This document shows positions 16,485 through 59,960 of a stretch of 64,000 nucleotides of DNA, one piece after another. A program made the position numbers and the translations under genes. How positions within the stretch are numbered: the stretch's first letter is position 1; each line of letters starts with the position of its first letter. The notes beneath the pieces were generated by a model. That model searched no databases. It had not been told where the DNA came from and worked only from the letters and a program-made list of their open reading frames with translations. The stretch is from Isoetes taiwanensis (Eukaryota; Streptophyta; Lycopodiopsida; Isoetales; Isoetaceae), in NCBI GenBank assembly GCA_021234155.1, contig JAJEKV010000101.1, positions 2,213,089 through 2,277,088 of the forward strand. The letters run 5' to 3'.

Positions 16485-18150
16485 TGTCCTAAGTAGAATG
16501 ATGACGCCTCCCTAAGCAAAATATAAGTGATGCTCGACCGCACACCCGTAGGAAATCCCCATCCGCCCCGACCGCGACAAAGTTCCTCCTGCCTATCCCA
16601 AGCACTGGGTATCCCTAGCGGAAGGGGACACGGCGTGTTCATGCTTCCTTCCCTAAGGGGCTCCTATCACAAATGAAGCATAAACAACGCCAAACTAGCA
16701 ATAGCAATACATCACACTCACTCAAGGGTAGCACATCCACATATCCATAGCTACAAATGTAGATAAATATATGTCATGTAAAACATGAGAGCTCCTACCC
16801 AAGGCCTTACTCTGGGAGGTAGACCTAATGGGCTAGGCTCCTTCAAGATAGAGCAAGTAATTTCAAGTCATAACAATGTATGTGGTCGCTATAGACAATG
16901 GCTAGGGCTGGGATCACCCATCCTCCCCAGGTATACTTTGCAGCATGGGCTAGATCAAGCTCGCATGACTCTAGGCTCTTTCTGGATATGCAATCCCATA
17001 AGATCACCCACGTGACTACTCCTGTGTTGCACTTCCCTGGTCCGCTGAGGCAGAAGGTTTCATCTCCCGCCCTGTGGTCTAGAGGTTCCACGGTGGCTAG
17101 AGAATCATGGCAGCACACCCATTCATCCCCACTTACTCCCAAACAAGACCCGTGCCAACACCTCGCGAACTCTTGAGAGGCAGTGGCAACACCAAGTAGT
17201 TCTCAGATAAGTCGGACCCATGCCCGGCCCACAATGGGCGACCAGCCATACCTAGCCTAATCATGGGGTCCCCAGTAGCCACGCCAGCAGGACCCCTCCC
17301 CTCCGTGATCTTTCTAGCCCCGCTTGTGTAGTGCTGAGTCACGCCATAGCCCCCTTTAGCCCTATGGGTTCCATGCACGTGCCTAATTATAGAAACCAAA
17401 GGGTCTAACCAGGAGCATTACTTGCTAAGGCTACTTGTGGCCCTACCCCTCCTAATACAAGAGGAGCAAACATGATCAACCATCATCATACAACATCATA
17501 TCATGATAATTTATCATTAACATCTAAATCTAATCATAATGATCTAACTTATAGTTAGGTTCCTTGGATTAGGGTTCAAGATGTTGAATAGGGGTTCTAG
17601 ATGGCTCTATTCTAGATACGAATACCTAATTCATCCGGGAGTGCTAATTTCCGTGATGAACTACTATGAACACTACTCCAAATACCTGCCCAAATGCTCC
17701 CTCCCATTCCCTCGGGCGCTCCATGGTCCTTGAAGTGGTCAAGCCGCTACCACTCCAAGATCGCAGGTACACACTCCGGGCCGGGCCGTGACCAGGCTAT
17801 GCCATAGCAAACGACGCCAAACGGGGTTTCCAAGGCGTGCTAGGCTAGTTCCTGGTGGTTAGGCCTGGTGGTGCTGACTAGGGTTAGGCTTAGGCTAATA
17901 GTAGATTAGGTCCACATGGGATGACACATGGCTCCACGCGGCCCAATGGGACAGGCCATGTGGCTGCTGCCCAATAGGTAAGGTCATGTGAAATGGGCCT
18001 TTTATTCTAAGGTTATCTGCTATATATACATAACTTAGATATGCACCCATGCCACTTCCTAAGGTATAAAGGCCACGAAGTACAATTTTTTGTATAGTGA
18101 TCTTAACTTAAATATAATGCATTTATAGCTTATATTCCCCGAACGCCACA
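16485..18150 (-). mobile_element. Element C, 3' LTR (left copy)
   Basis: This 1.67-kb segment matches 46314-47968 in the same orientation over its whole length. Shared blocks include ACTAGCAATAGCAATACATC, GGTAGCACATCCACATATCC and ATGATCAACCATCATCATAC. The outer boundaries are less clear than in the right copy: it starts near TGTCC and ends at GCCACA. Reverse transcriptase and gag coding between the two copies is on the minus strand, so this is the downstream LTR. A short purine run (GAGAGAA on minus) adjoins it at 18151-18157, a possible polypurine tract. No matching target duplication was found. Confidence 0.75.
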
Positions 18151-21574: not shown

Positions 21575-22161
21575 TGTTAGTCCCAGGCCTCCGGTGCAGA
21601 CTATTCATGACTGGACGGTTAGAAGTCAAGGCCAAAGATCCACAACCAGGGTCGGTCGCCAAAGGCCCGCCCGAGACTGCGGCAAACCACGCCAAAGCTC
21701 AAGTCCCTCAACAACAAGAGGCTGGAACCAAGTGACGTCCCCGCCACCGCCTCAAGACTAGAAGGCGGCCAGTGATTTCAAAGCTTTTCAAGAGGCACCG
21801 CCAAAGATTCCTCAAGAATCATCAGGCCTCCTTCCGTGAGTCGGCACCGAGATCGGGCCGAGTGTCTATATTGGGCCAAAGGCCATTGTACTATACATAT
21901 GAGTAGAGCTAGCACATGAGTTTTAGATGAGTTTTGAGTCTTGTCTCACTTCAGTTTTCTCTATGGCGAGCTCATGCGTCATCATCGCGATATCAAGGAA
22001 GCTTATCATTGTTGTCTCATTGTTCTTTTTTTGTTTTCTTTCCTTCCTTTTGGTTTTCTTTGCAAATCCCACGTGACATAGTCCCCCTATCCTCCCCGTT
22101 AGATCCAAGGGTCCTCACAGAGGGTCGTTTTGTGAGTTCCCCGAACCCGTACCCCCAAACA
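21575..22161 (+). repeat. Element A, 5' LTR
   Basis: This 587-base copy starts TGTTAGTCC and ends CCCCCAAACA. Its partner is 31997-32581. A TATA-like CTATACATATGAG lies at about 21892, and a T-rich stretch at 22010-22065. A primer binding site right after the LTR could not be matched to a tRNA. Confidence 0.9.
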
Positions 22162-22499
22162 CCGCCGCCAGCTGGTTCTGATTCGATTTTCCTTTTCTTC
22201 CCGCCGCCATGTCCGGCCCGGAACTTCACGCCATAAGAACTCCCTTTTCCCTGGAGCGCCATCATCGGCTGGAAGCCTCTCGCTGGCTGCATGTGCGGAT
22301 CCGCTTATGACATTGAGGAGGCCACATTCTGGCCTAGGGCTCACGGGCCACCCACCCCTCGTGGTCCGTCCCGCCTCACCAAGCCGCGGTAAACATTGCT
22401 CATGTACCACCACCTCATCACTATCAGAGCCCGGCTGCAAAATTAACCTTCTCAACCTTACTTTCATACCCACCACATGCCTACATCCATCATTCTTCC

Positions 22500-24250
22500 G
22501 CCATAATGCCTCCCTCGCCTTCACAACCATCATCTCCTACTTCTGCGGACGTCGTGATATCCACTCACCTTCTTTTGCTCCTCCCTCGTGAATTTCTTTC
22601 CTACATTTCTCCTCTCTCCCTCTCACTCGCTTTTTTTACAACCTTACAGACCTCAAAACCAATGATCGGGCACCTCCAGTACCTCCACCTCAAGAACCCC
22701 TTCATCGTGGTCTTTCGGGCACTATGCCCTCTCCAACTCCACCTCAATATATACCTATCCCGCTCCCCGGCCCAGCCAAGCACTTTCACCTCTACCTTTC
22801 AGACCCTTTAAGTGGGATTCTTATCCAACCTTTGGCAACACGGAAGGCAAACCATTAGACCAAAGTGCTCGGCCCACATGGAAGAATTCGAGGCCTCGCT
22901 GCCCTAAATGGTCATGCACAACCTCAACTAAAATTCCATATTTTTCCACCACACCGCTGGGTTTCCTCATCAATGGCTTATGTCCAACAAAAGCCACTGA
23001 AAACAAGATTGGTCCGGCCAAAACCGCTTTTTCTTTCTCACTATGGCACCACGGATGATGATCAACTTCATCTCAAGCAACTCAATGACCTTCAACAAGA
23101 ACCCACGGGAGTCCGCCCAGGATTTTTTGCCGGGACGACTTCACATCCTCGCCAAGAAACTCAAAGAGTACCCGGCACAAAGCCGGATCTTTGGTCTCGT
23201 TTCTTCAAGGACTTCCTCCCGCTATCCGACTCATGATCAATACCCGCCCAAGACTTTGGGGAGGTGCTATCGACCTTGTCAATCACTCGGGCCAATGCCT
23301 CCCCCGCGGGCGCGGCTCTTCAGAGCTCCCTTTATTCCACCAATCATGGTTCCACAGACGGCCGTTCCAACCTCAACACGCCAATCGCTAGCCAAGCAAG
23401 ATCTCGGGTGCCATATCTCAGAAATACCAAGGCCATGGCAAATGAATGCAACTCCACCAATGGCCCGGGCCATTGTAAAAGATGCAACATGTGCAAATAT
23501 GCACTAAGAGTGCACTCGCGACTCATCCTACCCCTTTCCAAAACAAGATGGTTTATCAAGTGCAAACAACACCTCAACACCTATCACAATATCACCGCGA
23601 ACCACAAAGCAGCTCAACCCAATCAACTCTATCAAGAATCGGAGCAACAACGGGACCCAACACACTTTTGATCCTTCTAAAGCCTCGCTGTTAATACACG
23701 TCACGAATGGGGGCATACCACCACATGTCCTCAACTTCCACAAGTTCAAAAGTTCCCCGCACCAATCGTATTCACTCACCCTCACGGCTTACTAACTCGA
23801 TTGCCAATGGCAAACAAGGCCCGTCGCCCCGCTTCTGAAGCCACCTCACACCCAGAATCACGCTTATCAACCAGCTCCCGCCAATCAACCTCGATGGATC
23901 AACAAGCACAGTGAAGAAAATTTTTCGTGCTCTTAATCCTCCGTCCAAAGAGCCAAATTGGGTTGGTTTGGTTTCACGCTGCACTGTATGGCCACGCCCC
24001 TTAACCATTATTCCTAATGGCACGCAACCCGCCTTTGCAGTCTTGGCACCATTCCTCATGAAGAGGAAAAAAGGTTCACTTTGCACCTGACTTGAGAAAC
24101 TCATGCCGCATGTCATGCCTAAAGTTCGCCAAAGCATTTTGAACCTCATGCAAGTCAAGGCCGCGACGCTATGGCTATGTTCATGCCACCACCAGAGCTC
24201 AACAACGACAAGATACACCTTCCACATCTCAACCTCCACGCCTCGCATAT
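22500..24250 (+). pseudogene. Element A, gag remnant
   Basis: Frames at about 22870-23310 read MEEFEA, then HQWLMSNKSH and MINFISSNSMTFNKNPRES, matching the gag of element B piece by piece. FLQGLPPAIR (about 23205) is the usual end of the retrotransposon gag domain. A zinc knuckle CKRCNMC follows at 23474, with its histidine and last cysteine lost through mutation, whereas element B still has CX2CX4HX4C. Frameshifts are many. Confidence 0.8.
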
Positions 24251-24499
24251 CCAAATATTGCTGCAGAGGTTGACCTACTCAAAGAAGTTTGCGCTTCATT
24301 ACCACGCGCTCCAAAGACCGGTGGATCCCGCAGATCCTTTTTCTCATGTGCCTCCTCGAACTCCAAGAGGAGTTGGCAAAAATCAAAACTCCCCTAAGTC
24401 TAGCAACAATTTTGAAACTATGTCTTGCTCTCAAGGACCGCTTACCACTCCCAACAGCTTTGGTTGGGGCTGTTGCAATTTACACCCACGGTCCATGCC

Positions 24500-24880
24500 A
24501 CGGTAAGCAATCAACAAAGTCAATCATGTTCAAATTGACGGAGGTAGCGTCATTAATCTCATCAATGACAAACTCCGCAAACAAATGGGCATCAAACAAC
24601 TCTATCGTGCCCCCATATGACATCAAATTGGCTAATAGCCATATCACGAGACCTCAAGGCGCCAATGCCTCTTCTTCACATCAACATTGGTGATCTCCGA
24701 TTCCCTTGAATTTGGTGTTTGGAAAGCCGGAGAAGATCCAAATTGATTATGAAATGTTGGTTCGCAGACTTTTCTCTCTCCAAAGCCAAGAGTATCCATT
24801 ATTGGGCCACCTGGACGCTTAGTCATCACAGATGGTCACCTCAATGCCACTATGGACTTGAAACCTGTATAAGATCATTT
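24500..24880 (+). pseudogene. Element A, aspartic protease remnant
   Basis: NHVQIDGG-S follows the D-G-G-S variant of the aspartic protease active site common in plant gypsy elements. It is followed in shifted frames by NDKLRKQMGIKQLYRAP, FGVWKAGEDP and VITDGHLNATMDL, each matching element B at 40340-39990. Confidence 0.7.
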
Positions 24881-25479
24881 TCGGCCGACAATACGAACCT
24901 CTCTCCCGGCCACGCATTCCCGGGAGGACGCCGTGCATATCTATGCCCAGGCTCCACCTCCAGGAAATTCCGCTCACCATCCTACCTCGGAATATGCCGA
25001 TCCTTGGGAGAAATAACTTTGATCGACCACCGTCAGGTCGCCTTGTTGACCCCCTACCCGCCCTTGCAATCGCGATCCAACGTGGTTCATCACTTTCAGA
25101 TGTCAAACTTTGATCCCCGCGACATGTCAACGCGTCATGAAGCAACCTCCTGGATGAAACTCAACAACCTCTTTCTTCACCACGCAGAAGCCCACGATCC
25201 CGCCATGCTTCAACCTCCTCGGCCATATTAACCAAGACACTGGTTATCCCACATATTCGTGAATGTCGAGATTGTGGATGTGGGCAAATAATCACCGCCC
25301 ATTGCCGCAAATCTTCCCGCCACCCTATCGTATCAAAGCCGCCACGCCTTCAAAAGTTCAAACACATTTTCGGAGTTACAGAGACCTTCTGGGATCAACA
25401 AAACCTTGGGGAACTCACCATTCCTACCAAATCATGCACGCCCCGCATAGCAACGACATCGCTCAACCCCCACTACCGT

Positions 25480-26140
25480 GGATCGCTGGGCCAAGGCGTA
25501 AATTGACAAACCCTTGCCGCAGTTTGATCTATGAGGTCAAACATTCAATGGGTGAGCCCCTTTGTGTCATTGCACCTCAAACACAATGGAAAGATCCGGT
25601 TTTATGCGGACTACCGAAACTAAATCAAAGCCAAGCTGAGCGCGATCATTTTCCACTTCCCTTCACGCACTGTGTTCGAAGAGGTTGGTTTGACATGAGA
25701 TGTACTCTTCATGGATGGTTTTTCTTCGGGCTACAATCGATCTCAATCAAAGAATCTGATCAACTCAAGACTACTTTCACCACCCCGGGGGCACTTTTGC
25801 CCCGCAAGGTGGTTCCTTTGATTATCAAACTCTCCATCAACGCTTTCAACGCATCATGCTCTCGATTTTGATTTTATGAAGGAAAACCCTTCTTGCAAAT
25901 TTTCAAGATGACTTCCGGCCCTACATGGTATGGCTGACCATTTGGATAAATTGAACTCGCCTTTCGTGAAATGTGATGAGTCCCACATTAGTCTTAATCC
26001 CCAGAAATGCACCTTTTAAGGCCACTTCAGTGTTCTCATTAGGACACGCTGTACAAGAAAGGCAGGTATCACCACTGATCCTCGCCAAAATCGGGCTTGT
26101 GTGCTCAAAGCTCAAGCACCAATATCAAGGGGACACGCTT
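25480..26140 (+). pseudogene. Element A, reverse transcriptase remnant
   Basis: Pieces in three frames give KIRFYADYR, FPLPFT, FMDGFSSGYN and QSISIKESDQLKTTFTTP, then LSNSPST and a DDF catalytic core at about 25897-25915 (one T shorter than in element B, hence the shift). LNPQKCTF (about 25993-26015) marks the end of the palm. The order and spacing are those of Ty3/gypsy RT. Confidence 0.8.
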
Positions 26141-26149
26141 CTTTCCCCG

Positions 26150-26720
26150 GTAAGGTAAATTATTACTCCACCTTCATTCCCGGACTTGCAGCCATTGCCG
26201 ATCCCATTCATAAACTCATCGGTGATGAATCCACCTTGCTTGGAATTCCTCAAAGATGTCGCTTCCAACCGCTTGAAGCTTTTACTTGCTCAGGCCCCGC
26301 TTCTTGTTCCTCCTCAATGGGACAAGCCCTTTCATGTCCATGTAGATGTCTCTGCTGCTCGCTATTGAGATGTTCTTTTCAAGAATATGATGCGCATTAA
26401 TCGACAAAACCAAAACCCATATGCCGCCAGTAAAACTCAATTGGAGCCGTTGAACTACTCGCCACCGGCTGAAGCCTTGGGTTTAATTTTTCGTGTTCAA
26501 CGCCCGCCACTATCTTTAGGCAATGATCAAATTCTTGTTGACCACCAAGCACCTTTATTTGATCAACAAATCCACGCCTACCTGCCGCATTGCTCGTTGG
26601 GTTCTCCTTCCGCAAGAATTTGCACCTTTGAAATTGTTCACAAGGCAGGCAAATCTCATGTTGTCCCGGATACACGCATCCACGTGATGATCCTCCATGG
26701 GAGTCTCGTGATGCCTTTCG
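26150..26720 (+). pseudogene. Element A, RNase H remnant
   Basis: YYSTFIPGLAAIADPIHKL (26160-26216) is the connection segment. LKLLLAQAPLLV and DKPFHVHVDVSA (26270-26360) are the start of RNase H. ICTFEIVHKAGKSHVVPD (26620-26670) is its end. All are strongly matched by element B. Confidence 0.8.
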
Positions 26721-27049
26721 ACGCCAACTCTTTCTCGGGTCACGACCACGCCACATTGGTTCCACAACTTTCGCCAGATCTCCTCACAGCGCCTTTCCAC
26801 CGGAGGACGCCTTCCTCCAGCCAAGCCGCCAATCCCGCCGACACCAATTTCTCCGCGAGGTCCGCGGATCACACCCATGGTTGCGCAGCCATCTTTACAA
26901 AAAGGGCAAGGGATACCGCCCTCGATGCCGTGGTTCTCCTCATAAGGTCCCAGATATTGTCCGAGAAGCCCATGAAGGGCTCTGGTGGTGGTCATTTTCA
27001 TGGTGACACCACCAAGACGCAAAAATCCTTCTTGGCAGTTATTTTGGCC

Positions 27050-27960
27050 CATGCTCTTCAAAAGACGCCACACGCCACGACGCGGTGATGCTTGTCGGGG
27101 TGGGGAAGGCCCACGTCCGGTGATGCTCTTTCTCCTCGACGCCGGCCGCCACGCCACTTCCTTTCAAAGAAATGGAGATGGATTTTGTGGGACCCATTGA
27201 TCCGCTTCAAGCACATATCACACCCGCGTTCGCCACATTCGGGTTTCAATCGACCACGCTTACCAAATGGGCTTTAGCTTGCGCACTTCCGACAACACCA
27301 GCCAAAGCACCGCCAAGGTCATCTATCGAAGAAATCATCACGCTGCTTTGGCTGCCCCACCTGAGTCGGGTCGCTGATCGCTGTCCATTTTATCAATCAT
27401 ATCATCAAGGAGCTAACGGATTATCTATGATCCATCATCACAAGAGCACACCTTACTATCCCCAAGGAACGGATTGGCCGAAAAGCACCAACAAAACTCC
27501 TCGGGTCACAATTCTCAAGAAAATTTGTGATGCTTCTCAAATCGATTGGCAAAACAAGCTTCCTATAGTTCTTTGGGCTTACAATACTTGTTTCAAAAAA
27601 TCGCCATCGGGTCACACTTTCAAATTGGTTTATGGTCAAGAAGCTCTAATGCCCTTTGAATACATTCTTTCAACTCTCCGCTTTTCAACCGCTACAGCCA
27701 TAACTACCACGGCCAAGACTCAAAGAAAGGGTTTATCAATTGGAACAGCTTGGATGAACTTCACAAGGATGCTTATATTTGTGTTCTTCATGGACAATCT
27801 ACGTAAATCATTGCATGACAAAAGACTTAAGACAAAAACATTCAAAGAAGGAGATTTGGTTCTTCTTTATGATTCTCGCTACAAAAACTTTCCTAAGTTA
27901 AAGTTTCATGGCTTGGCCCTTATCAAATTGTTCAAGTAGTGCAACCCGCTGTTTTCAAGT
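27050..27960 (+). pseudogene. Element A, integrase remnant
   Basis: MDFVGPIDPLQAHITP (27178-27230) opens the integrase core. KWALACALP (27268-27295) and later WQNKLPIVLWAYNTCFKKSP (27550-27605) with LVYGQEALMPFE (27625-27660) are the middle and end of the core. DKRLKTKTFKEGDLVLLYD (27820-27875) is the C-terminal segment. The frame from 27172 to 27939 is open for 255 residues, the best-preserved part of the element, though pieces of the catalytic core are missing. Confidence 0.85.
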
Positions 27961-28129
27961 CGGCTGAATTAGATGGAACTCCATTACCTACACTAGTTAA
28001 TGGCTTTCGCCAAACAATTTCATATACACCGTAAAGTGCCAATCATACAAATGATGCCGCTCAAGACAAAGACACAAATGATAGTGACTAACCAAGCAAG
28101 ATATTTATATTATATGGGGGAATTTTTTA

Positions 28130-36780: not shown

Positions 36781-36872
36781 TTGAATCATCTGTTTGGTGA
36801 TTTTTAAACTTTACGTGTGATGAAATGTTTTGAGGCTAAAACCATTAACCAAGGTAGGTAATGGAGTGCCAT

Positions 36873-37860
36873 CTAACTCTGCCAGGTTGGAAAACGCTGG
36901 TCCGACCACTTGAACAATTTGATAAGGGCCAAGCCAACGAAACTTGAGTTTACCCTAAAAATTTTTGTACACGGAATCATAAAGAAGAACCAAATCGCCT
37001 TCTTTGAATGTTTTTGTCTTCGATGTTTGTCATGTAAAGATTTTTGCAATCGTTGTCCATGAAGAACACGAATATAAGCATCCCTTCGAAGTTCATCCAA
37101 GCTTTCTAATTGATAGACCCGTTCTTTGAGTGCGGCAGTGGGATCATGAGCGGTTGCCGGTTGAAAACGGTGTTGGAAGGATGTATTCAAACGGCATGAG
37201 AGCTTCCCGACCATAAACCAATTTGAAAGGAGTGTGACCCAGTAGCAATCTTGAAACAAGTATTGTAGGCCCAAAGAAACGAGAGGGAAGTTTTGTTTGC
37301 CCACCTGTGCGTGAAGCATCACAAATTTTCTTGAGAATGGTGACGAGTTTTGTTGGTGCTTTCACAAACCATTACCTTGAGGATAGTAAGGTGTGCTCTT
37401 GTGATGATGGATCGAGATAATCCGTCAAATCGACTCCTTTATGGTATGATTGATGAAATGGACACCACGATCACCGACCCGCTCAGGTGGGGCAAATCGC
37501 GTGATGATTTGTTGATAAAGGACCGGCCGTGGCTTTGCCTGCGGTGTTGTGCGGAAGTGCACAAGCTTCCGCCCATTTAGTAGCATAGTCGGTGAGAACC
37601 AGAATGTAACGCACGGTGTGCTGCGCAGAGGGTCGATGGGTCCCACAAAATCCATTCCCCATTTGCCGAAGGGAAGTGGCGCGGCAACCGGGCGTCAAGG
37701 GAAGAGCGTCACGGCCGTCGGCCGCCCCACCACTGGCAAGCATCACACGCGGCTTGGCGCGTGCGAGCGTCTTTGAAGAGCGTGGGCCAAAAATACCCAA
37801 ACTAGAAGGATTTTTGCGTCGCGGTGGTGTCACCATGAAAATGACCACCATCTAGCCCTT
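36873..37860 (-). pseudogene. Element B, integrase remnant
   Basis: Minus frames give MDFVGPIDPL (37655-37626) and YILVLTDYATKWAEACALP (37600-37545, with the first catalytic Asp in LTD). Next come LVYGREALMPFEYILPT (about 37215-37165) and DKHRRQKHSKKAIWFFF (about 37020-36975). CDACQWWGG-like sequence (about 37750-37715) is the last half of the HHCC finger. The segments are split among frames. Confidence 0.82.
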
Positions 37861-37964
37861 GATGAGCTTCTCGAACAATATCCGAACTTCATGAGGTAGA
37901 ACACGGGCGTCGAAGGATGGTGTCCTTACCCTTTTGTAGAGATGTCCCGCAAACCATGGTGTAG

Positions 37965-38804
37965 TCACGCGGACCTCGCGGAGAAATTGATGGCGACGGA
38001 TTGCCGCTTGGCGAGAGAGCCGCCTCGCCTTCCGTGGAAGAGCACCGTGAGGAGGTACTGCTGAAAATCATGGAACCAATGTGGTGTTGCCGCGACTAAA
38101 AAGAGTCGAAAGCATCGTGAAAGGCGCCTCGAGACTCCAGTTGAGGGATCATCCGTGTGGATGCGTGAAAGATAATCCGACAACATGAGATTTGCCGCCT
38201 TATGAACGATTTCAAAAGGGCAAATTCTTGGAGAAGAAGGACCCAACGTGCAATGCGTCCGTGGGCGGGACTTGTTGATCAAATAAAGGAGTGCTTGGTG
38301 GTCCACAAAGAACTTGATTTTGACTGCCCAAAAGGTAGTGACTGAGCGTTGGACACGTAAAATGAGACCCAAAGCTTCACGCCTGCGGGCGTAATAGTTG
38401 GGCGCCGCCAGAATTGAGTTTTCTACCGGTGTATCGATTTGGTTTGTCGGGCAAAGATCATACTCTTGGCAAAAGAACAGCTCCAATAGCAAACGCCGAG
38501 ACATCGACATGAACATGAAAGGGCTTGTCCCATTGAGGAGGAACAAGAACCGGGCCTGAGTAAGCAAAAGCTTCAACCGTTGGAAAGCAAAGATCGCCTG
38601 GGAATTCCAAGCCCGTGGATTCGTCACCGTGAGTTTATGAATGGGATCCGCAATGGCCGCTAGTCCAGGAATGAAGGTGGAGTAATAATTGACCTTACCC
38701 GTGAAAGACCGCGGTTCCCCTTGATATTGGCCGGGTGCTTGAGCCTTGAGCACCACAACCCATTTTGGCGGGATCTCGTGGTGATACCGCTTTCTGGTCG
38801 ACAA
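37965..38804 (-). pseudogene. Element B, RNase H region
   Basis: A 279-residue open frame on minus starts in the thumb (PPKWVVVLKAQAPGQYQGE), passes KVNYYSTFIPGLAAIADPIH and DPRAWNSQAIFAFQRLKLLL (connection), then EALGLILRVQRSVTTFWAVK, KIKFFVDHQALLYLINKS (RNase H core) and CPFEIVHKAANLMLSDYLSR (its end). This is the longest intact piece of pol in the window. Confidence 0.88.
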
Positions 38805-38859
38805 CGCGGCTCAACAACACCGAGGGTGGCGCAAAAGGTGCATTTCTCGTGATTGAGAC

Positions 38860-39400
38860 TAATGCCTGGACTCATCACATTTCTCGAAGACGAAGTTCCA
38901 ATTTATCCAAATGGTCAGCCATGGAACCAGAGGCGTAGAAGTCATCTTGAAAAATTTGTAAGAAGGGATTTTCCTTCATGAAATCATGAAAACCGAGAGC
39001 ATGATGCGTTGAAATGTTGATGGAGAGTTTGATAATCCAAAAAGGAACCACCTTGTAGGCAAAAAAGCCCCCTGGTGGTGAAAGTAGTCTTGAGTTGATC
39101 AGTTCTTTGATTGAGATCTCGATTGTAGCCGAAAAACCATCCATGAAGGAGTACATCTCATGTCCAAATACCTCTTCGAAACGATCTGTGAAGGGAAGTG
39201 GAAAAATGATCACGCCCGCGGGGCTGATTGAGTTTTCGGTAGTCCACCGCACGCGGATCTTACCATTGTGTTTGAGAGGCAATGACGATGGGGCTCACCC
39301 ATTCGAAATGTTTGACCTCATAGATCAAACCCGCAAAGGGAGTTTGTCAATTTCCCTTGACGCGATCCGCACGGTAATTAGGGTTGAGCCGGTCTGCATC
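38860..39400 (-). pseudogene. Element B, reverse transcriptase core
   Basis: On minus the frame 39282-38875 reads NGKIRVRWTTENSISP, FPLPFTDRFEEVFG and HEMYSFMDGFSATIEISIKE. Then follow FFAYKVVPFWIIKLSINIS and FLQIFQDDFYASGS (catalytic DD at about 38945). Spacing and order are those of Ty3/gypsy RT. Small indels replace the usual GYNQI and NSPSTFQ segments. Confidence 0.88.
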
Positions 39401-39851
39401 GTTGCTAAACCGGTCGCGGCATCGATTTGGTAGGAATGGTGAGTTCCCCAAAGCTTTTGTTGATTCCCGAAGATCTCGTAACTCCAGTGAAAATGTGTTT
39501 GAATTTTTGAACAGCTTGACTACCCCACAATACGATAAGGGGCGGAAGATTTGGCAAAAGAATGCGACGGGTTGATTGTTGCCCACGCCCACGATCTCAA
39601 CCCGAGTCTCAATATGAGGGATCACCGGTGTCTTGGACAATATGAGCGGCGGTTGAAGCATAACAGATGATCGTTGCACTTTTATGGTGAAAAGAGGGTT
39701 GCCGAAGTTTCATCCAGCCAGAGGTTGCTTCATGACGCCGTGTACATCAACGTGGAGTTGCGGAGGTTCAAAGATCCGAAAAGTGATCAACACGTTGGAT
39801 TCGATTGCAAGGAGCCGTAAGGGTCAAGCAAAGCGCCCATACCGGTCCCGA

Positions 39852-40544
39852 TCAAGAGTCATTTCTCCCCAAGGATCGGATATTCGGGTAGGATGACGAG
39901 GCGCACTCACGTGGAGCCTGAACTTGATAAATATTTTGAGCTTCCTCAGAATCCGTGTCCGAGAGAGAGGGTTCCGCATGTTCAACAGAAATGATCCTGC
40001 CTGTTTGCAAGTCCATGGTGGCATTGAGGTGACCATCAGTGATGACTAACTGGTCCGTGGCCCAGTAATGGATACTCTTGGCCTGGCGGAGAAAAGGTCT
40101 GCCGACCAACATTTCATAGTCACCGGATCTTCGCCCGGCTTTCCAAACTCCAAATTCCATGGGGAAGCGGAGATCACCGATGTTGATGTGAAGAAGAGGC
40201 GTGACGCCTTGAGGTCGCGTGATATGGCCATTAGCCAACTTGATGTCATATGGGGCACGAAAGAGTTGTGTGATGCCCATTTGTTTGCGGAGTTTATCCG
40301 TGATGAGATTGACTGCGCTACCTCCATCTATTTGAACATGGTTGACTTGCTGATTACCCACCGTGGCATGGACCGTGGGTGTAGAGGTAGCCACAGCCCC
40401 AACTAAAACAGTTGGGAGTGGTAACTGGTCCTTGAGAGCGTGACGAGTTTGAGAATGGTTGCCAAGCTTAAAGGAATTTTGATCTTGGCTAGCTCCTCTT
40501 GGAGTTCCGTGAGGCACATGAGAAAAAGGATCTGGCGGTTCCAC
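39852..40544 (-). pseudogene. Element B, protease region
   Basis: A 230-residue open frame on minus contains VQIDGGSAVNLITDKLRKQM (the D-G-G-S active-site loop), YDIKLANGHITRPQG, FGVWKAGRRSGDYEMLVGRP and VITDGHLNATMDLQTGR. This is the retropepsin-like domain of plant gypsy elements. The start of the frame (DPFSHVPHGTPRG) is the gag-protease linker. Confidence 0.82.
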
Positions 40545-41045
40545 GGGTCTTTGGAGTCGCGTGGTAGTGAAGCGGCAACTTCTTTGAGTAAGTCAACCTC
40601 TGCGGCAATATTGGGATACGCCCGAGAGCCGTGGAGGTTGAGATGTGGAAGGTGTATCTTGTCTTTGTTGAGCTCCTCGTGGTGGCATGAACATTCGCTA
40701 GCGCAGCGCCTTCAAAGCAGCCTTTGCATGAGATTTAAAATGCTTTGGCTAACTTTAGGCATGACATGTGGCATGAGTTTCTCCAAGTCGTGCAAAGTGA
40801 ACCTTTTTTTTTTCCCTCATGAGGAATGGTGTCAACCGCAAAGGCGGTTCGCGTGCCATTTGGAATAATGGTCAAGGGCGGATGCCCCGGTGAAATCGTG
40901 TAACCAAACCAACCCAATTGGATGGCTGGACCGGAGGATTAAGTGCCCGAAAAGATTTCCTCCTGTGGCTTGTTGATCCAAATTTTAGGTTGATTTGCCG
41001 GAGCTGGTTGATAGCGTGATTGCCGAGGGCGCTCTTGGTGGCTTC

Positions 41046-42596
41046 TTAAGAACTGGTCACCGCCTTGTTTGCCATTAGCAATCGAGTTGGTAAGCCGAGT
41101 GAGGCGGACCGATGTGGTCCGATTGGTGCCGGGAAGCCGCACGAACTTGTGGAAGTTGAGGGCACCGCCGTGGTGGTATGACCCCATTCTTGATAGTGAT
41201 AACACCGAAGCTTTAGAAGGATCAAAAAGGAGGACGGGTTGGGTCCCCGTTGTTGCCCCCTGCTACCGGAGCAGAGTTGAGTGGTTGCACCGGGGTGGTG
41301 GGGCCGATAGTGCGATTGTTGATGAGGTGTGGTTTGCACTTGATAAACCGGTTTGTTGCGAATCTGTGGGATGAGTGCGAAAGTGCACTCTTCCGTGGCA
41401 TGATTGCACATGTTGCATCTCTTGCAATGAGGCGGGCCATTGGTGGAGTTGCACTCATTTGCCAAGTGGCCTTGGTATTTGCAGATATGGCACCGATCCG
41501 ACCGCTACCGCGGATTTGCGTGTTGAGGGCTGGACATCCGTCTGCGGAACCATAACAGTGGAATGAAAGGGAGCTCTCGGAAGAGCCACGCACGAGAGGA
41601 AACATTGGATCGAAAGTGATTGACAAGATCAATAGCCCGCCCAAGGTCTTGGGACGCAGTATTCCGCCATGAGTCAATAGCCGGAGGAAGTCCTTGGAGA
41701 AACCGCACCAAAAAATCGCTCGTGGTTGATACCCCGGAGTTTACCGAGCGTAATGTGAAGTCGACCGCAAAATCCCCTGCGCACTGCGGGCTCTTGTTGA
41801 AGTTCATTGAGTTGCTTGAGATGAAGTTGATCATCATCCGTGGGTCCCATAATGAGAAAGAAAAGCAGCCGCATTTCACCTCTTGTTTCCAATGGCTTTT
41901 GTTGGACATGAGCCATTGATGAGGAGAGCCACGCAGGTGGTGGAAAAGATGTGGAATTTCAGTTGAGGTTGCGCATGACCATTTAGGGACAGCTAGAGCC
42001 TCAAATTCTTCCATGTGGGCCCGAGCACTTTGGTCTAAGGGTTTGCCTTTAGGTGTTGCCAAAGGTGGGATAAGTCGGTTCCGAGTCCGGAAGGTAGATG
42101 TGAAAGTGCTTGGCCGACGTAAAAACAAAGATAGTGAGGATATTGAGGTTGAGTTGGATGTGGCATGGTGCCTAAGGACCCTCCCCGATGAAGGGGTGAT
42201 CATGGTTGAGGAACCCAAGCTGCTTGAGCATTGGTTTTGAGATCCGTAAGGTTGTAAAACAGAAGGGCAAGGGGAAATGTAGGGGAAAGGATATTCTGGG
42301 TAGGTGCAAAAGAGACTTGTGGATATCCTTGCCCACCCGGGAGATGATGGTTGTGAAGGAAGAGGCGATGGGTCAAGAATGATGGATGTAAAACTGTTCA
42401 GTGTATGAAAGTACCTGTTGAGAAGGTTGAGCCCCTGATAGGGCTCCCCATAGTGATGAGGAGGTGATCGAGGCCGGTGGAGCAATGTTTGCACGCTTGG
42501 GGCGGGAACCGGACGAGACAGACACGAGGGGTGGGTGGCCCGATCGGCCCTAGACCGAAGATGGCCTCCCTCTATGTCATAAGCGCATCCATACAT
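41046..42596 (-). pseudogene. Element B, gag
   Basis: A 363-residue open frame on minus (42596-41505) carries MEEFEALAVPKWSCA, LRGSPHQWLMSNKSHW and MINFISSNSMNFNKSP. DFLVRFLQGLPPAIDS closes the retrotransposon gag domain. After a shift, 41465-41046 holds a zinc knuckle CKRCNMCNHATEEC (CX2CX4HX4C, about 41430-41390) and a second, imperfect one (CYHYQEWGH). Gag proteins coat and package the element RNA. Confidence 0.85.
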
Positions 42597-42730
42597 GTCG
42601 CCACAGCTTCAACCGATGGCGCTCAAAGCTGAGATGCCGCCTGAAAGGAGTTCTTCCGGGCGGAAATTTCTAACACATGGGCGCATGTAAGAAAGTATGA
42701 TTGAATCGCACTCCACGGCAGGACATGGGC

Positions 42731-43283
42731 TGTTTGGGGGTCCGGGTTCGAGAACTCTCGAAGACCCTCTCCGCGGAGGACCCGGTGGATCTAACAGAGA
42801 GTCCGGGGACTATGTCACGCCGATTTGTAAGAAAAGAACAAGAAGAAGAAAAAAGGGGGAACAAATATGAGGAAAATGATAAGCTTCCTTGATATCAATG
42901 ATGAACATACATGAGCTCTCGCAATAGAGAGAAAAACCGAAAGGAGACAAGACTCAAAACTCATCTAGAACTCATGTGCGAAGCTCTAGTCATATATATA
43001 GTACAATGGCCTTTGGCCCAATATAGACACTCGACCGGGATCTCTGCCGACTCGAAGGAGGCCCCGACAGGGAATCTTGCCGGGCAGCCTCTTGAGGTGC
43101 TCGGGATCACGCCGACGCTGGCGGTGATGGCCCGCCACTTGTCTGAGCGGCGCTCTCTGAGTGGCCGCCGCTTGGCTTCTCTTGGGCCTTAGATGACCAC
43201 CTGCGGGTTGACTGTGGATCCTTGTGCTTGACCTCGGTCCGTCAGAGCATGAATAGTCCTCGCACGAGGCAATGTGACTAACA
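42731..43283 (-). repeat. Element B, 5' LTR
   Basis: A 553-base copy starting (on minus) TGTTAGTCACATTG and ending GGACCCCCAAACA. The internal region begins at 42730. No tRNA primer site was recognised directly after it. Confidence 0.93.
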
Positions 43284-46313: not shown

Positions 46314-47968
46314 TGTGACATTCCCTACAAAATATATGACGCCTTTCCGTATTTACACTCCGTGAAAAATCCCCCATCCCACCCCTTCAACCGATTTAAG
46401 GCCTCCGCCTATCCCGCAAGACAGGGGTATCCCTAGTCGGGAAGGGGGACACGAAGCCGCCTTGCGCCCCCTTCCCCTATGGGCTCCTATCACAGCAGAA
46501 GTATAAACAACGTCAGAACTAGCAATAGCAATACATCACACTACCTCGAAGGGTAGCACATCCACATATCCATAGCTACAACAGAGATAACCTATGTCAT
46601 AAAACATGAGAGCTCCTACCCAAGGCTCATACTCTGGGGAGGTAGACCGGCTGGCTAGGCCTCAAGATAGAGCGGCACAGAGTCATAACAATGGCGGGCT
46701 GGCTATAGACAATGGCGAGGTTGACCACTCCATCCGCCCCTCTGTGTGCATACTTTGCAGATGGGCTAGATCGGGCTTTGGCATGACTCTAGCCTTCCAA
46801 ATATACAATCCCATGGTATCACTCTCCACGGACTACTCCAGTTGCATCTCCCTCGCCCGTTGAGGCAGGAAGGGTTTTATCTCCCCTTCACGGTCTAGGA
46901 GGTTCCACGCGGCTAGAGAATCATGGCGCACTAACATTCGCTCCCCCACTTACTTACCCCCAAAACAAGAGCAGGCCAACACCTCGCAACTTGAGAGGCG
47001 AGGGCAACACCATTGCCCCGGGGAGGTGTCGGACCCATGCCCGCCCCACCGCAAGTGACCGCCATAAGCCTAGCCCGCCATGGAGTCCCCAAGAGCCACA
47101 CTCCGCAGGGGCCCTCCCTCCGTATCTCTTCTAGCCCCGTTGTGTAGTGTGAGTCACGCCATAGCCCCTTAGCCTTGCGGTGGGTTCCTATGCAGGCAGC
47201 ATAATAATAGGAACTAAAGGGGTCTAACTAGGAGCATTACTAAGTAAGGCTACTAGGCTTCTCCCCCTTCCCAATACAAGAGGAGCAAACATGATCAACC
47301 ATCATCATACAACATCAGATCATGATAATCATCAGAATAACTTCTAACCTAATCATACATATCTAACTTACAGTTAGGGTTCCTTGATTAGGGTTCAAGA
47401 TGTTGAATAAGGGTTCTAGGATGGCTCTACTCTAGATCTTTAAATCTTGACTCATCCGAGGTGCTAACTTCCGGATGAACTACTATGAACACTAATCCAA
47501 ATACCTGCCCCGAAGTGCTCCCTCCCATTCCCTGGCGTCATGGTCCTTGAAGTGGTCGGCCCAGCCACTCCAAGATTGTGCACACACTCTGAGGGTCACG
47601 AGACTAGGCTATGCCATAGCAAACGCGGCTCGAAATGGGGTTTGAAAAGCGTAAGAAGGTTCCCAAGGTGTTAGGGCCCGAGAAAAGAGGACTAGGGTTA
47701 GGGTTTAGGTTAATATAGGTTAGGGTCCACATGGGATGACACGCGTGGTTCCACGTGGCTCCAATGGGATATGGCCATAATGGCGGTTGCCCAATAGGGT
47801 AAGGTCATGTGAAAATGGGCCTTATCCTAAGGTTATCTAAGTTATATACATAGCTTAGATATGCACCCATGCCACTTCTAAGGTATACAAGGCTACTTAA
47901 GTAGACTTGTATAGTGACGACCAAAAATATCGTGTTTATTTATAGCGTATATTTCCTCGAACGTCACA
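46314..47968 (-). mobile_element. Element C, 5' LTR (right copy)
   Basis: This 1655-base copy begins (on minus) TGTGACGTTCGAGG and ends GGGAATGTCACA, so its termini form the inverted repeat TGTGAC/GTCACA with TG...CA ends. Its partner is 16485-18150. With A and B removed, element C would have been about 12 kb. Flanking bases (AAAAC right, TGCAG left) do not match, so the target duplication is lost or the left boundary is misplaced. Confidence 0.82.
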
Positions 47969-55685: not shown

Positions 55686-55710
55686 ATGGCTCAGCAACCT
55701 CTGACAAGGT
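55686..55710 (+). repeat. 25-bp direct repeat, left copy, flanking the HUH element
   Basis: It begins ATGGCTCAGC and ends CTGACAAGGT. An identical copy lies at 58347-58371. Flanking bases on either side differ, so the match is exactly 25 bases. It may be a terminal direct repeat of the element or a long target duplication. Confidence 0.85.
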
Positions 55711-55953
55711 GTGTATTATCGCTTAAGTGTGTATTATCGCTTCTTAACCGTTAGATTAAGTGTTTTTAAAAAAAAATTCAATGGTGCACAAGTCAAGATG
55801 CTCTCTCCTGCAATCCTGTGCGTCCATTCTGAGTCTTTTACAGGTCAAACTTGGGGTGTTTGACCTGCACCTAAAATACACACAATATACATCAGACCAT
55901 GCTGTATTATGGCAAGAAATACAGTCCTGTGTATTATACATGTTAAAGAGGAC

Positions 55954-56077
55954 CTGGGGAATCGAACCCCAGTTAAACCTGAACCTGAACTCAAATACCT
56001 GTATGTGTCAAAGCAAAAGAGAACCAAATGAATATAAGGAAAACCAGAAACTAGGAGTCTGAGGAATTGAACCTCAG
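55954..56077 (+). repeat. Two co-varying hairpins near the left end of the HUH element
   Basis: Hairpin 1 (55954-55972) is CTGGGG-AATCGAA-CCCCAG. Hairpin 2 (56059-56077) is CTGAGG-AATTGAA-CCTCAG. Stem length (6) and loop length (7) are equal, flanks are similar (GA..CTG, CAGTTA), and the stem difference is a compensated base-pair change. Read on minus they resemble tRNA T-arms with B-box sequences, but no A-box or acceptor stem is found at a fitting distance. Related hairpin-prone words occur at 56290-56306 and 56337-56353. Confidence 0.6.
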
Positions 56078-56517
56078 TTACTAGCCATTACTCAACCATG
56101 CATAAAGAGGCTTCACAGTGGAGCCACGTTATCTAAAGGGGCCAAAGCCCTCTAAAGCTGAAAGGTAGCGTCAAGAACAAGATACATTTGAATAAAATCA
56201 AAAAGATGTCAATGTCATTCATTTACCACAAATTGTCAAGAAAGAAGAAACGTAAAAGTTAACATGAAATCGCAAGTCAAGCGGGGTGCGCGGGGATCGA
56301 GATCCCACACTCACACCAAAGAGCGACCATCGGTACGCGGGGATGAGGTCCCACGACCCACTAAAAAAGACCCATAAAACAAGCAGTGGGCTGCCACCAT
56401 AAATGGCAGCCAAGATAAAAGTTATTTTCAGCAGAGTTCAACATGTTTCATTATCGATCAAAACGACCAAAGTTCAACAAGTTTATCAATTTCTAGCCCG
56501 CCCAACCATAGCATCCC

Positions 56518-57326
56518 TCACCAACAAGTCAATTTGCGGATCTCCGAGTCGGTAAAAGCCACGGCAAGGCTCATGTGAGAGCGTAAAGCATGGATATCCG
56601 ATGGCAAAACACCAAGGCGATCCCAACTGACTGCAGATAAGGCAGCATCCATAGCCCCATAGAGGCTGCGAAGCTGCCTCTTAAGTATCCGCAAGGAAGC
56701 AGCTATGCGGTGAGCTTCAAGACCAACCTTGTATCACACAATTTAAAAACTCCTCGGCCAGGTGAATGTCTCTTCTTCTTCCCGAGGATAAGCAAGAGGA
56801 TTTGGATGAGAGTCATCCACCGGCATGACCACAAACCCAGGGCTTATATGCACATCAACAGGAGTCACATGCACAGGAGTTACATGGACTTCAGAAGCTT
56901 CCGTCTCCATAACACGAAATCAACCTGGAAAATTACAAAGCAAACAAACAAACAAGCAAGAATTAGAAACCTGTACATAGCTCGCCCACAAAAATGGATC
57001 TCATCCGATTTGCCATTGTATGATCTCCAAAGATGAATGGGGATGAAATCGGCACCAACATCGGTACATTGGCCCGAGAACCAAAAGACCTTTCATCCGT
57101 GTCCTCAAAGTTCTCGTCCCGCTTTCGTCTGCCCGGGGATGCTATCATCCCAATAGCGGCGCCGCCGGCCCATTCCTCTCAAGCTGGAACATACCCCACC
57201 GGCGACCCAAATATAATAGCCCCGACATCCGATGGCAAACAAGAGGAAGGATTCGTTACACGCCAAGCGACCCTTACTCTATGCTCATTAATATGAGCAG
57301 AATTAGAAGGATGATCCAGAGTCATT
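56518..57326 (-). pseudogene. Downstream coding pieces of the HUH element protein
   Basis: On minus, a frame from about 57326 reads MTLDHPSNSAHINEHRV and EEWAGGAAIGMIASPGRRKR, then ANVPMLVPISSPFIFGDH, to about 56963, with one TGA near 57175. After a short T-rich, intron-like stretch ending TTTTCCAG (about 56925), METEASEVHVTPVHVTPVDV starts at 56910. The same frame carries on past TAA (56743-56745) and TGA (56734-56736) into RIAASLRILKRQLRSLYGAM, ending TGA 56518-56520. The good codon structure suggests these are the C-terminal exons of the HUH gene, now with a few stops. No domain is recognised. Confidence 0.45.
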
Positions 57327-57354
57327 TGAGCGTATATTTAGAAGACCTCAACAT

Positions 57355-57363
57355 CTTACATAC
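57355..57363 (-). other. Strong candidate 5' splice site at the end of the HUH exon
   Basis: GTATGTAAG on minus overlaps the apparent C-terminal Cys-Met-stop of the HUH frame, implying that the visible stop lies inside an intron. Confidence 0.5.
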
Positions 57364-58150
57364 AAAGATAAGTTAGACTAGGTGTATGCCTCCGTCCGCC
57401 ATGGTAAAAAACAAAGTGAGCAGCCTTATTCATCAGATTTCTGTTATCAAGAACACACAATCCTTTAGTATCACCTGCCCCCCATCTAAGGTATAGATCT
57501 TTACCCCTTTCAACCATTCCCTCGGATACATTGTACAGATGACAAGTATAATGCACTTTGCCGATATCCTTCATACAATACCCGACCATGCCCTCAAAAC
57601 AATGGAGCTTGGTGTTTTTTAAGGCCTTGCAGATCAAAACTACGCCCGTGGGCTTGGGCTTCCAGTTAAAAGCAGATTTAATAGCCTCATTCACGCTCTT
57701 TGGATTTCTAAAACGACATCTTAAAACGGCCTGTACATGCAGATGGTCGGCTGAGGACCCTCTTTCTAATGCCACAGCACCAGCCAGGCATTTAGAGTTG
57801 CAGAACAAAACAAGGCCATCATAAAATGATCTTGGCACATCTTGGCCAGAAAGACCCAGCGTGACAGAAACATCAAGCCAATCCAGATTCATATTCAAAT
57901 CCACAAGTGGAACAGACTGGGTTGCCTGGCCTGGGCCAGATGGGAAGGAAGCATCAGCCTGGCTTCTAGCAAGCCGACCACTTCTGGCTGCTCGACGCAG
58001 GGACATGGCAACAAGAACAAGGGACCAAGACAGCAAAAAAACAGAAGAACAGGGATGGCGCAGGCGCTTACCTTCAAGGGCCGATGAAGATATGTGAGCA
58101 AGATCATCGGCTCCATGCCCATCCTCTGCGCCAAATTTAGAATCGCCCAA
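57356..58150 (-). CDS. HUH endonuclease domain protein, Replitron-like
   Basis: The open frame of 264 residues has an HUH motif HLHVQ (the two His codons lie within 57737-57745) preceded by AVALERGSSAD. About 55 residues later comes the tyrosine motif GYCMKD (YCMK at 57569-57580) within FEGMVGYCMKDIGKVHY. HLYNVSEGMVERGKDLYLR follows. This His-x-His then Tyr-x-x-Lys order defines single-tyrosine HUH nucleases, which nick and rejoin single-stranded DNA. The segment after YCMK resembles what I recall of Replitron nucleases in algae and oomycetes. No helicase follows, unlike Helitron or viral Rep. The last codons overlap a strong 5' splice site (GTATGTAAG on minus, 57355-57363), so the gene probably continues downstream. 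GTAAGCG near 58073 and CAG near 57990 could also be an intron, so the N-terminus is uncertain. Confidence 0.72.
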   Translation of the reverse strand: MGDSKFGAEDGHGADDLAHISSSALEGKRLRHPCSSVFLLSWSLVLVAMSLRRAARSGRLARSQADASFPSGPGQATQSVPLVDLNMNLDWLDVSVTLGLSGQDVPRSFYDGLVLFCNSKCLAGAVALERGSSADHLHVQAVLRCRFRNPKSVNEAIKSAFNWKPKPTGVVLICKALKNTKLHCFEGMVGYCMKDIGKVHYTCHLYNVSEGMVERGKDLYLRWGAGDTKGLCVLDNRNLMNKAAHFVFYHGGRRHTPSLTYLCM

Positions 58151-58346
58151 TCAAGCGCTCTCCTCCAAAGAAAATAATAGGAAGGCAAGAAAGGAACCAT
58201 CGAAATAAAACTAAACCCTAAAATACCCTTTCTCGGCCAAACTCAGGTATTTTATCAGTATTTATACGGTTTTAATACAAATACATTCCAAAAACCTTTA
58301 TAAATCTTATGTAAGAAACATACGACATTTCAACCAGCAGACATTA

Positions 58347-58371
58347 ATGGCTCAGCAACCTCTGACAAGGT
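58347..58371 (+). repeat. 25-bp direct repeat, right copy, flanking the HUH element
   Basis: Identical to 55686-55710. TTAAGTCTTGG follows it, whereas GTGTATTATCG follows the left copy. Confidence 0.85.
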
Positions 58372-59319: not shown

Positions 59320-59960
59320 AAGAATTGTTGTGGAATCTTAGAATTTTAAAATCTATGGTAATTAAGAGAATCTTCATGGGACCTAAGAGAATCTAGGAGA
59401 ATCTCAAAAGAATTTTAAGGAATCTACAAGAACCTTAAAGAGAGTCTTTGGAAATGTAGGGGAATCTAAGGGAATCTTCATAACATCTTTGAGAATCTAT
59501 TAGAATCTTAATGGAATCTCGAAGAATCTAGGGGAATCTTCATAGAATCTAAAGGAATCCAAGGGAACCTATATAGAATCTTGGAGAATCTAGCAGAATC
59601 TAGGAACCTAGGGGAATCTTAAGAGAATCTTCGAGAATCTACTTAGAATCTAAAAGAATCTTCATAAAATATAAGAGAATCTAAGGGAATCCTTATGGAA
59701 TCTTAGGAATTCCAGGGATTCGTCATAGAATTTAAAAGAATCTAGGCGAATTTTCATAAAATATTTGAGAATCTAGGGGAATCTTGATAAAATCTTTGAT
59801 AATCTAGGGTAATCTTTTTATATTATAAATCTATGAGAAGCTAGGGGAATCTTCATATAATCTTACGAAATCTATGAAAAGTTTTATAGAATCTTAGGGA
59901 ATTCAAGACAGCCTTAATGATATCTCAAGGGACCAAGGAAATCTTAGAGAAATCCAAGTA
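59320..59960 (+). repeat. Degenerate GAATCT minisatellite
   Basis: GAATCT or close variants recur more than 30 times, mostly at 14-18 base steps, in words such as AGAATCTAGGGGAATCTT and ATAGAATCTTGGAGAATCTA. Copies are heavily diverged, so the array is old. No gene lies in it. Confidence 0.9.

Follow-up and report, generated by a model that had tools for sequence, protein, structure and literature searches.

An Isoetes taiwanensis Replitron lineage with exact 5′ ends, ragged 3′ ends and a covarying T-arm-like module

An open frame in a 64,000-nucleotide stretch of Isoetes taiwanensis contig JAJEKV010000101.1 (positions 2,213,089 to 2,277,088; hereafter the window, in which all coordinates are given) carries the motifs of a single-tyrosine HUH nuclease, which raises the question of what kind of element this gene belongs to and how such an element moves. 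The coding part of the locus comprises the following features.

57356..58150, minus strand: HUH nuclease open frame of 264 residues, with a probable start codon at 58006
57491..57868, minus strand: Replitron_HUH domain (PF21859), from the Pfam match
57731..57748, minus strand: DHLHVQ, the His-U-His motif, from the alignment of the genome's sequences
57566..57583, minus strand: GYCMKD, with the expected catalytic Tyr and Lys, from the alignment of the genome's sequences
56923..57363, minus strand: continuation with the C-terminal domain, frame-shifted in the window copy, from tblastn with a paralogue's protein

The probable start codon is the M of MSLRR, and the 48 residues that precede it in the frame are therefore probably untranslated and not part of the protein. 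In a Pfam-A scan, the frame matched PF21859 (E = 6.9e-19; 68.9 bits, the cut-off being 28.5) over residues 95–220, that is, positions 1–127 of the 128-position profile, and no second family was found at E ≤ 10 by a search whose HMMER filters discard most matches with E above about 0.1. The match implies that the pairing of HLH (residues 136–138) with GYCMKD, on which an earlier note on this DNA had based its identification, is not due to chance. Indeed, both histidines, the tyrosine and the lysine are invariant in 11 of 11 aligned sequences from the genome, the window frame itself being one of the 11. All four paralogue proteins with open frames that were scanned match PF21859 (E = 1.3e-18 to 5.2e-22) and, at 14.4–16.7 bits and so under the curated cut-off of 27, PF21860, Replitron_C. 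The earlier note was thus right in placing a Replitron-type HUH nuclease in a land-plant genome and in describing a frame devoid of helicase: Pfam scans of the window frame and of the four family proteins revealed no helicase domain. Outside the host genome, a set of 5.8 billion proteins yielded no relative at E ≤ 0.001 among the 265 candidates scored and none at E ≤ 1 among the 8000 candidates with the most words in common; since this set may contain few plant proteins, the result is uninformative with regard to novelty. Among viral contigs, 48 stretches fit the peptide pattern and none of the 48 encodes a relative, and a PDB sequence search returned four antibody chains alone (E = 0.16–0.8).

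The founding description of Replitrons is reportedly that published by Craig in PNAS in 2023. The available text of a review gives direct terminal repeats of 5–11 bp, duplications of 2–8 bp and sizes of 0.9–4 kb for these elements, and includes lycophytes among their hosts; the duplication range is descriptive and does not define the family. Accordingly, both the Replitron family and its occurrence in lycophytes were already known, and the Isoetes copy does not extend the known range, as the earlier note had thought it might. The Isoetes element agrees with that text in its HUH domain and single Tyr motif, in showing no detectable helicase domain, in the short ATAAT or TAAT present at both ends with no terminal inverted repeat found, in its size of 2.6 kb, and in its host, which lies inside the listed range.

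The limits of the element, its terminal features and the repeats that flank it are as follows.

55709..58346, minus strand: Replitron element, 2638 bp, from the limits of homology to paralogous copies
58308..58322, minus strand: 5′ subterminal small hairpin TATGT-TTCTT-ACATA, 5-bp stem, within chance
55743..55760, minus strand: 3′ subterminal hairpin CTTAA-TCTAACGG-TTAAG, 5-bp stem, within chance
55709..55738, minus strand: 3′ tail, one 18-bp ATAATACACACTTAAGCG-type unit and a second unit ending after ATAATACACAC
58347..58371, no strand: 5′-side flanking direct repeat, 25 bp, an exact match to 55686–55710, read as a target-site duplication
55686..55710, no strand: 3′-side flanking direct repeat, 25 bp, of which 2 bases overlap the element tail

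Homology to five close paralogues spans 58346–55709 and ceases within a few nucleotides of both positions, the 5′ end being 58346 and the 3′ end 55709 (ambiguous by 2 nt). An internal stretch is missing from e4, one of these five, and the 3′ end of paralogue e6 continues into an inverted second element; this arrangement, L006 with L035, is an inverted pair of related elements lying tail to tail and about 85% alike. Further copies exist across the host genome (1,658,258,908 bases in 1110 contigs), where at least 145 places match the nuclease frame, 145 of 3756 candidates having been scored. The element does lie beside a conserved plant gene, as the earlier note had it: an At1g16860-like gene has its coding stretches between 52204 and 54440 on the plus strand (three stretches by tblastn, preceded by one recognised by eye), and the element lies about 1.3 kb past the last of those found.

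The 5′ end of the elements is exact at TAAT, and the 3′ end is ragged, stopping at different positions within a tandem ATAATAC unit. At the 5′ joint, four groups comprising 6, 3, 7 and 8 copies each have a pairwise identity of 1.00 at TAAT and of 0.00–0.57 upstream of it, save for one or two common bases directly before TAAT in two of the groups. At the 3′ end, the units containing ATAATAC are mostly 18–19 bp long. By an objective periodicity rule, a tandem tail is present in 21 of 32 elements, a count that includes the two marginal elements L065 and L067, and its second unit runs for 4 to 23 nt and then breaks off; 11 of the 32 have no such tail. Most copies carry ATAAT at both ends as a direct terminal repeat; in the window copy a T precedes TAAT, hence its terminal repeat is 4 bp. 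Terminal inverted repeats were not found, none of four inverted-repeat pairs being located at the ends. Perfect stems of 5–6 pairs precede the tail in the window copy, L028, L030 and L022; terminal hairpins are individually within chance, stems of at least 6 pairs arising in 11–26% of shuffles for the four ends tested.

Of the 18 elements with both ends located, 3 are flanked by exact repeats anchored at the junctions: L009 (17 nt), the window copy (25 nt) and e4 (29 nt, of which 24 precede the common TAATG). Two others (e2 and L008) have an 8-nt junction repeat, and in 13 the match is only 3–6 nt, which is the chance level. All three repeats of 17–29 nt terminate at the 5′ joint or no more than 5 nt from it. 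Among 306 cross-pairings of unrelated flanks, the longest match was 8 nt, reached once. The 8-nt repeat of L008, which equals this maximum and lies more than 20 nt past the tail, was not counted as a duplication, and 10-nt matches in e3 and e5 were discarded for their positions inside the element. A wider search, covering the 41 loci (of 54) whose 5′ end was recognised, some of whose 3′ ends may lie outside the stretch covered, added L061, where a 13-nt repeat including TAATG stands at the 3′ end, separated from the tail by 5 nt of unexplained sequence. The repeat extends into sequence that the tail unit predicts, by 2 nt in the window copy, 4 nt in e2 and 5 nt in both L009 and e4. We read these overlaps as suggestive of joining by microhomology, a reading based on these four elements and from which L061, with its 5 intervening nt, differs. 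Of the five cases in which a repeat makes the target visible, three (e4, e2 and L061, not the window copy or L009) have TAAT there, right at the joint. With only short matches in 13 of the 18 elements, the long repeats may reflect an infrequent event or a different cause; in addition, base errors of the assembly might conceal repeats or blur 3′ ends.

The joints may be explained in more than one way. The reading we favour, and consider reasonably probable, is that the window element is one copy of a multi-subfamily Isoetes Replitron lineage, in which an HUH nick at TAAT would produce an exact 5′ joint and the host would repair the 3′ joint. The single-tyrosine HUH protein would nick the sense strand at the 5′-terminal TAAT and remain on the nicked 5′ end via a phosphotyrosine; the nicked strand would then be transferred into the target, giving the exact 5′ joint. 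Strand transfer would terminate anywhere in the tandem ATAATAC tail, the 3′ cut being made at no fixed base, and host repair would join the 3′ end through a few matching bases, whereupon gap filling would leave either no duplication or one of highly variable length. According to the available text of PMC13231165, HUH enzymes remain bound through a phosphotyrosine to the 5′ end of the strand they cut, and a 5′ end held in this manner would fit the exactness of the 5′ joint; end joining by the host would be in keeping with the ragged 3′ joint, the few bases of overlap and the variable length of the duplications. We infer this chemistry, the sequence of its steps and the involvement of repair at the 3′ joint. 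The way in which a helicase-less HUH element is copied and inserted in a eukaryote should leave testable signs in a lineage of this size, whose 5′ ends are exact and whose 3′ ends are ragged.

Alternatively, this might be a wholly ordinary Replitron whose duplications are short or absent and whose 3′ end is precise at ATAATAC, the long repeats and ragged tails having arisen by later rearrangements or assembly errors. Such a view, which appears to us rather unlikely, would accommodate the repeats of at most 8 nt in 15 of 18 copies, the likelihood of assembly errors at CHG sites, and the 7 of 21 tails that break 4–7 nt into the second unit, close to ATAATAC. It has more difficulty with three exact repeats of 17–29 nt situated so close to the 5′ joint and with tails that continue for up to 23 nt in the element's own unit sequence, as would not be expected from errors. 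Flanking repeats of up to 25–29 bp, as opposed to the 2–8 bp of the review, the ragged tail of tandem units and the T-arm-like module described below also set the Isoetes elements apart from the available text of that review; the Replitron descriptions consulted, in the parts available, mention no such tail, no duplications as long as 25 bp and no such module, and some of these features may be covered by Craig (2023).

The module, of about 115 nt, lies upstream of the element's 3′ end and is accompanied in the window by a second, weaker copy.

56048..56161, minus strand: structured module composed of a small hairpin, a long hairpin, a T-arm look-alike and an acceptor-like closing stem, from model R1 and covariation
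56059..56077, minus strand: T-arm look-alike CTGAGG-TTCAATT-CCTCAG, from the motif
55943..56027, minus strand: second, weaker module copy (23.8 bits, E = 7.3e-4)
55954..55972, minus strand: T-arm look-alike of the weaker copy, CTGGGG-TTCGATT-CCCCAG, from the motif

The T-arm look-alike has a 6-bp stem and a 7-nt loop, TTCRANT, and its 3′ side passes directly into the acceptor-like stem. The motif GGTTCRANTCC, which we take to be the T-loop or B-box sequence of tRNAs, was found in the 54 loci at 44 sense-strand sites and at 4 sites on the other strand. For the alignment, a stricter first motif filter that left only 5 loci was replaced by a looser rule, which skipped 20 of the 54 loci and left 34; L029 (spanning two loci), L057 (equal to L054) and e4 (equal to e3) were then dropped, and L014 was retained despite its poor fit. 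RNAalifold, applied to the resulting 31 sequences, gave 26 pairs, 13 of them with changes on both sides. The structure covaries: 94.4% of paired cells can pair, compared with 83.5% in shuffles and 28–50% when the pairing is slid, and the covariation score is 0.362 compared with 0.177 in shuffles, neither value being attained by any of 500 shuffles. Less clear are the number of pairs with a change on both sides and that of further pair types, which were attained by 31 and 8 of the 500, respectively. Base errors at CTG/CAG might mimic covariation at CTG/CAG pairs; helix 2, however, changes from C-G to A-U and from A-U to C-G, which is not of this kind.

With covariance model R1, whose training set contains the window copy, the window module scores 98 bits (E = 1.6e-22). 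Of the 54 element loci searched, 38 contain the module with a score of at least 70 bits, the window copy being included and L029 and L042 taken as one. Training rows came from 31 of these 38, the others being L004, L025, L027, L029, L050, L057 and L066; the modules of L004 and L057 have the same sequence as training rows, and that of L066 lies on the strand opposite to its own HUH gene. No match at E ≤ 0.1 was found in the subfamily comprising L013, L017, L019, L020, L022, L028, L030, L051 and L062, nor in L012, L021, L023, L055, L059 and L071, and L063 gave a weak match of 34.8 bits. A genome DNA search with the L058 module retrieved at least 40 places, 40 of 442 candidates having been scored. 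Nine of ten module stretches taken from places away from the known HUH places adjoin Replitron-protein coding sequence by tblastn, which indicates, at the level of sequence, that the module belongs to Replitron elements. One locus, L081, contains Replitron coding parts only outside most of the HUH domain.

Which strand folds can be addressed from the pairs themselves. G-U cells outnumber A-C cells by 66 to 10 (42 to 10 without one column), and this excess favours the sense strand as the folded one. Fold energies show no preference for the sense strand, the z-score of the other strand being lower in 5 of 9 sequences; on the sense strand, z is below −3 in 7 of 9, with −1.7 for L068 and −0.9 for the window copy. 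By itself, the window copy thus folds no better than shuffles, and it is partly degraded or miscalled. If the module has a role, we favour one on the sense strand, which might be exerted either as RNA, in transcript processing or translation, or in the transferred single strand, the two being about equally probable. More tentatively, and with somewhat less confidence than doubt, it may be proposed that Isoetes Replitrons carry a selected tRNA-like module that aids movement or expression on the sense strand, and integrate asymmetrically, the HUH protein making an exact 5′ joint and microhomology a 3′ joint within the tandem tail, with duplications of zero to about 25 bp. If a T-arm-like fold were conserved in a DNA transposon, it would bring together tRNA-like structure and rolling-circle-type mobility, an uncommon combination.

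The tRNA-like domain of tmRNA, mascRNA and plant mitochondrial t-elements have no full cloverleaf, their T-arm being stacked on an acceptor-like stem. The Isoetes module shares this stacking and differs in residing in a DNA transposon, with no CCA end seen and no tRNA match in Rfam. Neither ARAGORN nor Rfam recognised a tRNA gene, and no full cloverleaf was recognised. At a loose threshold, the only Rfam matches were far under the gathering scores, to microRNA families and to a tmRNA fragment (13.8 bits against a gathering score of 47), and none fell within the window's element. A long hairpin just past the module of L009 (3442–3537) is weakly microRNA-precursor-like (E = 0.0032, far under the gathering score). 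The T-arm-plus-stem pattern had no exact match in viral contigs, and "tRNA-like structure" was absent among the matches listed for the literature on HUH elements. The module might nevertheless be a tRNA-derived SINE or a tRNA fragment acquired by an ancestor and functionless in the element, as the GGTTCRANTCC motif and the existence of a whole subfamily without the module would allow. We regard this origin as unlikely in view of the negative tRNA searches, the 3′ position of the module in diverged subfamilies, the changes on both sides of half of its pairs and its association with Replitron coding sequence at the further sites.

Whether the lineage still encodes a working protein is a separate matter, for the window copy has frame breaks in its C-terminal domain. 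The assembly, according to the available text of PMC8566536, was made from nanopore reads polished with racon and pilon, and amounts to 1658.30 Mb in 204 scaffolds and 909 unplaced contigs. When the window copy is compared with four full-length paralogues, 28 of 42 difference blocks fall at CAG/CTG, where 8.5 are expected; none of 2000 placements was as high, and three control motif pairs were at or below expectation. The same clustering is seen in e2 (15 of 25 blocks), e5 (38 of 52) and e6 (32 of 55) and is absent in e3 (2 of 14), with some control motifs mildly raised in e3, e5 and e6 as well (lowest fraction of placements, 0.014). Among the window copy and paralogues L002, L005 and L006, differences concentrate at CAG/CTG sites. 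The 104 differing columns of the window copy consist of 29 indels, 31 transversions and 44 transitions, a mixture for which deamination alone is a poorer explanation than nanopore errors at CHG-methylated cytosines, and the frame breaks may thus be such errors instead of decay. Given these CHG-linked differences, transposon genes of the Isoetes assembly may appear broken though intact.

That the element is a decayed relic of a lineage without a working protein, as the broken C-terminal domain and the stops in many of the matching places could suggest, is improbable. Besides the clustering of differences at CAG/CTG, the window copy has near-twins, stretches of e2 and e3 being 99.5–100% identical to it, and purifying selection acts on the open frames of the family protein, with dN/dS of 0.09–0.18 in 9 of 28 open-frame pairs, those with estimable dS. 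Finally, a Helitron or the Rep of an integrated CRESS-DNA virus, with which the frame has HUH and Tyr motifs in common, is a most improbable identity: the profile search left Replitron_HUH as the sole Pfam-A family, with no Helitron or viral CRESS Rep family at E ≤ 10, and Helitrons, which also use an HUH nuclease, insert between A and T without duplication (available text of the review); neither a helicase domain in the four family proteins nor a Rep-plus-helicase protein was found here.

Other repeats occur in the window. Close to the element, at 59349–59928, 31-bp units of the GAATCTAGGGGAATCTTCATA type form a degenerate tandem array. The segments 21825–28037 and 36808–43063, each about 6.2 kb long, are inverted copies of each other with 77% identity; their frames resemble pieces of a retrotransposon polyprotein by eye, and four of them had no Pfam match at E ≤ 0.001. 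A direct pair of 1.6 kb, 78% identical, lies at 16585–18150 and 46402–47968.
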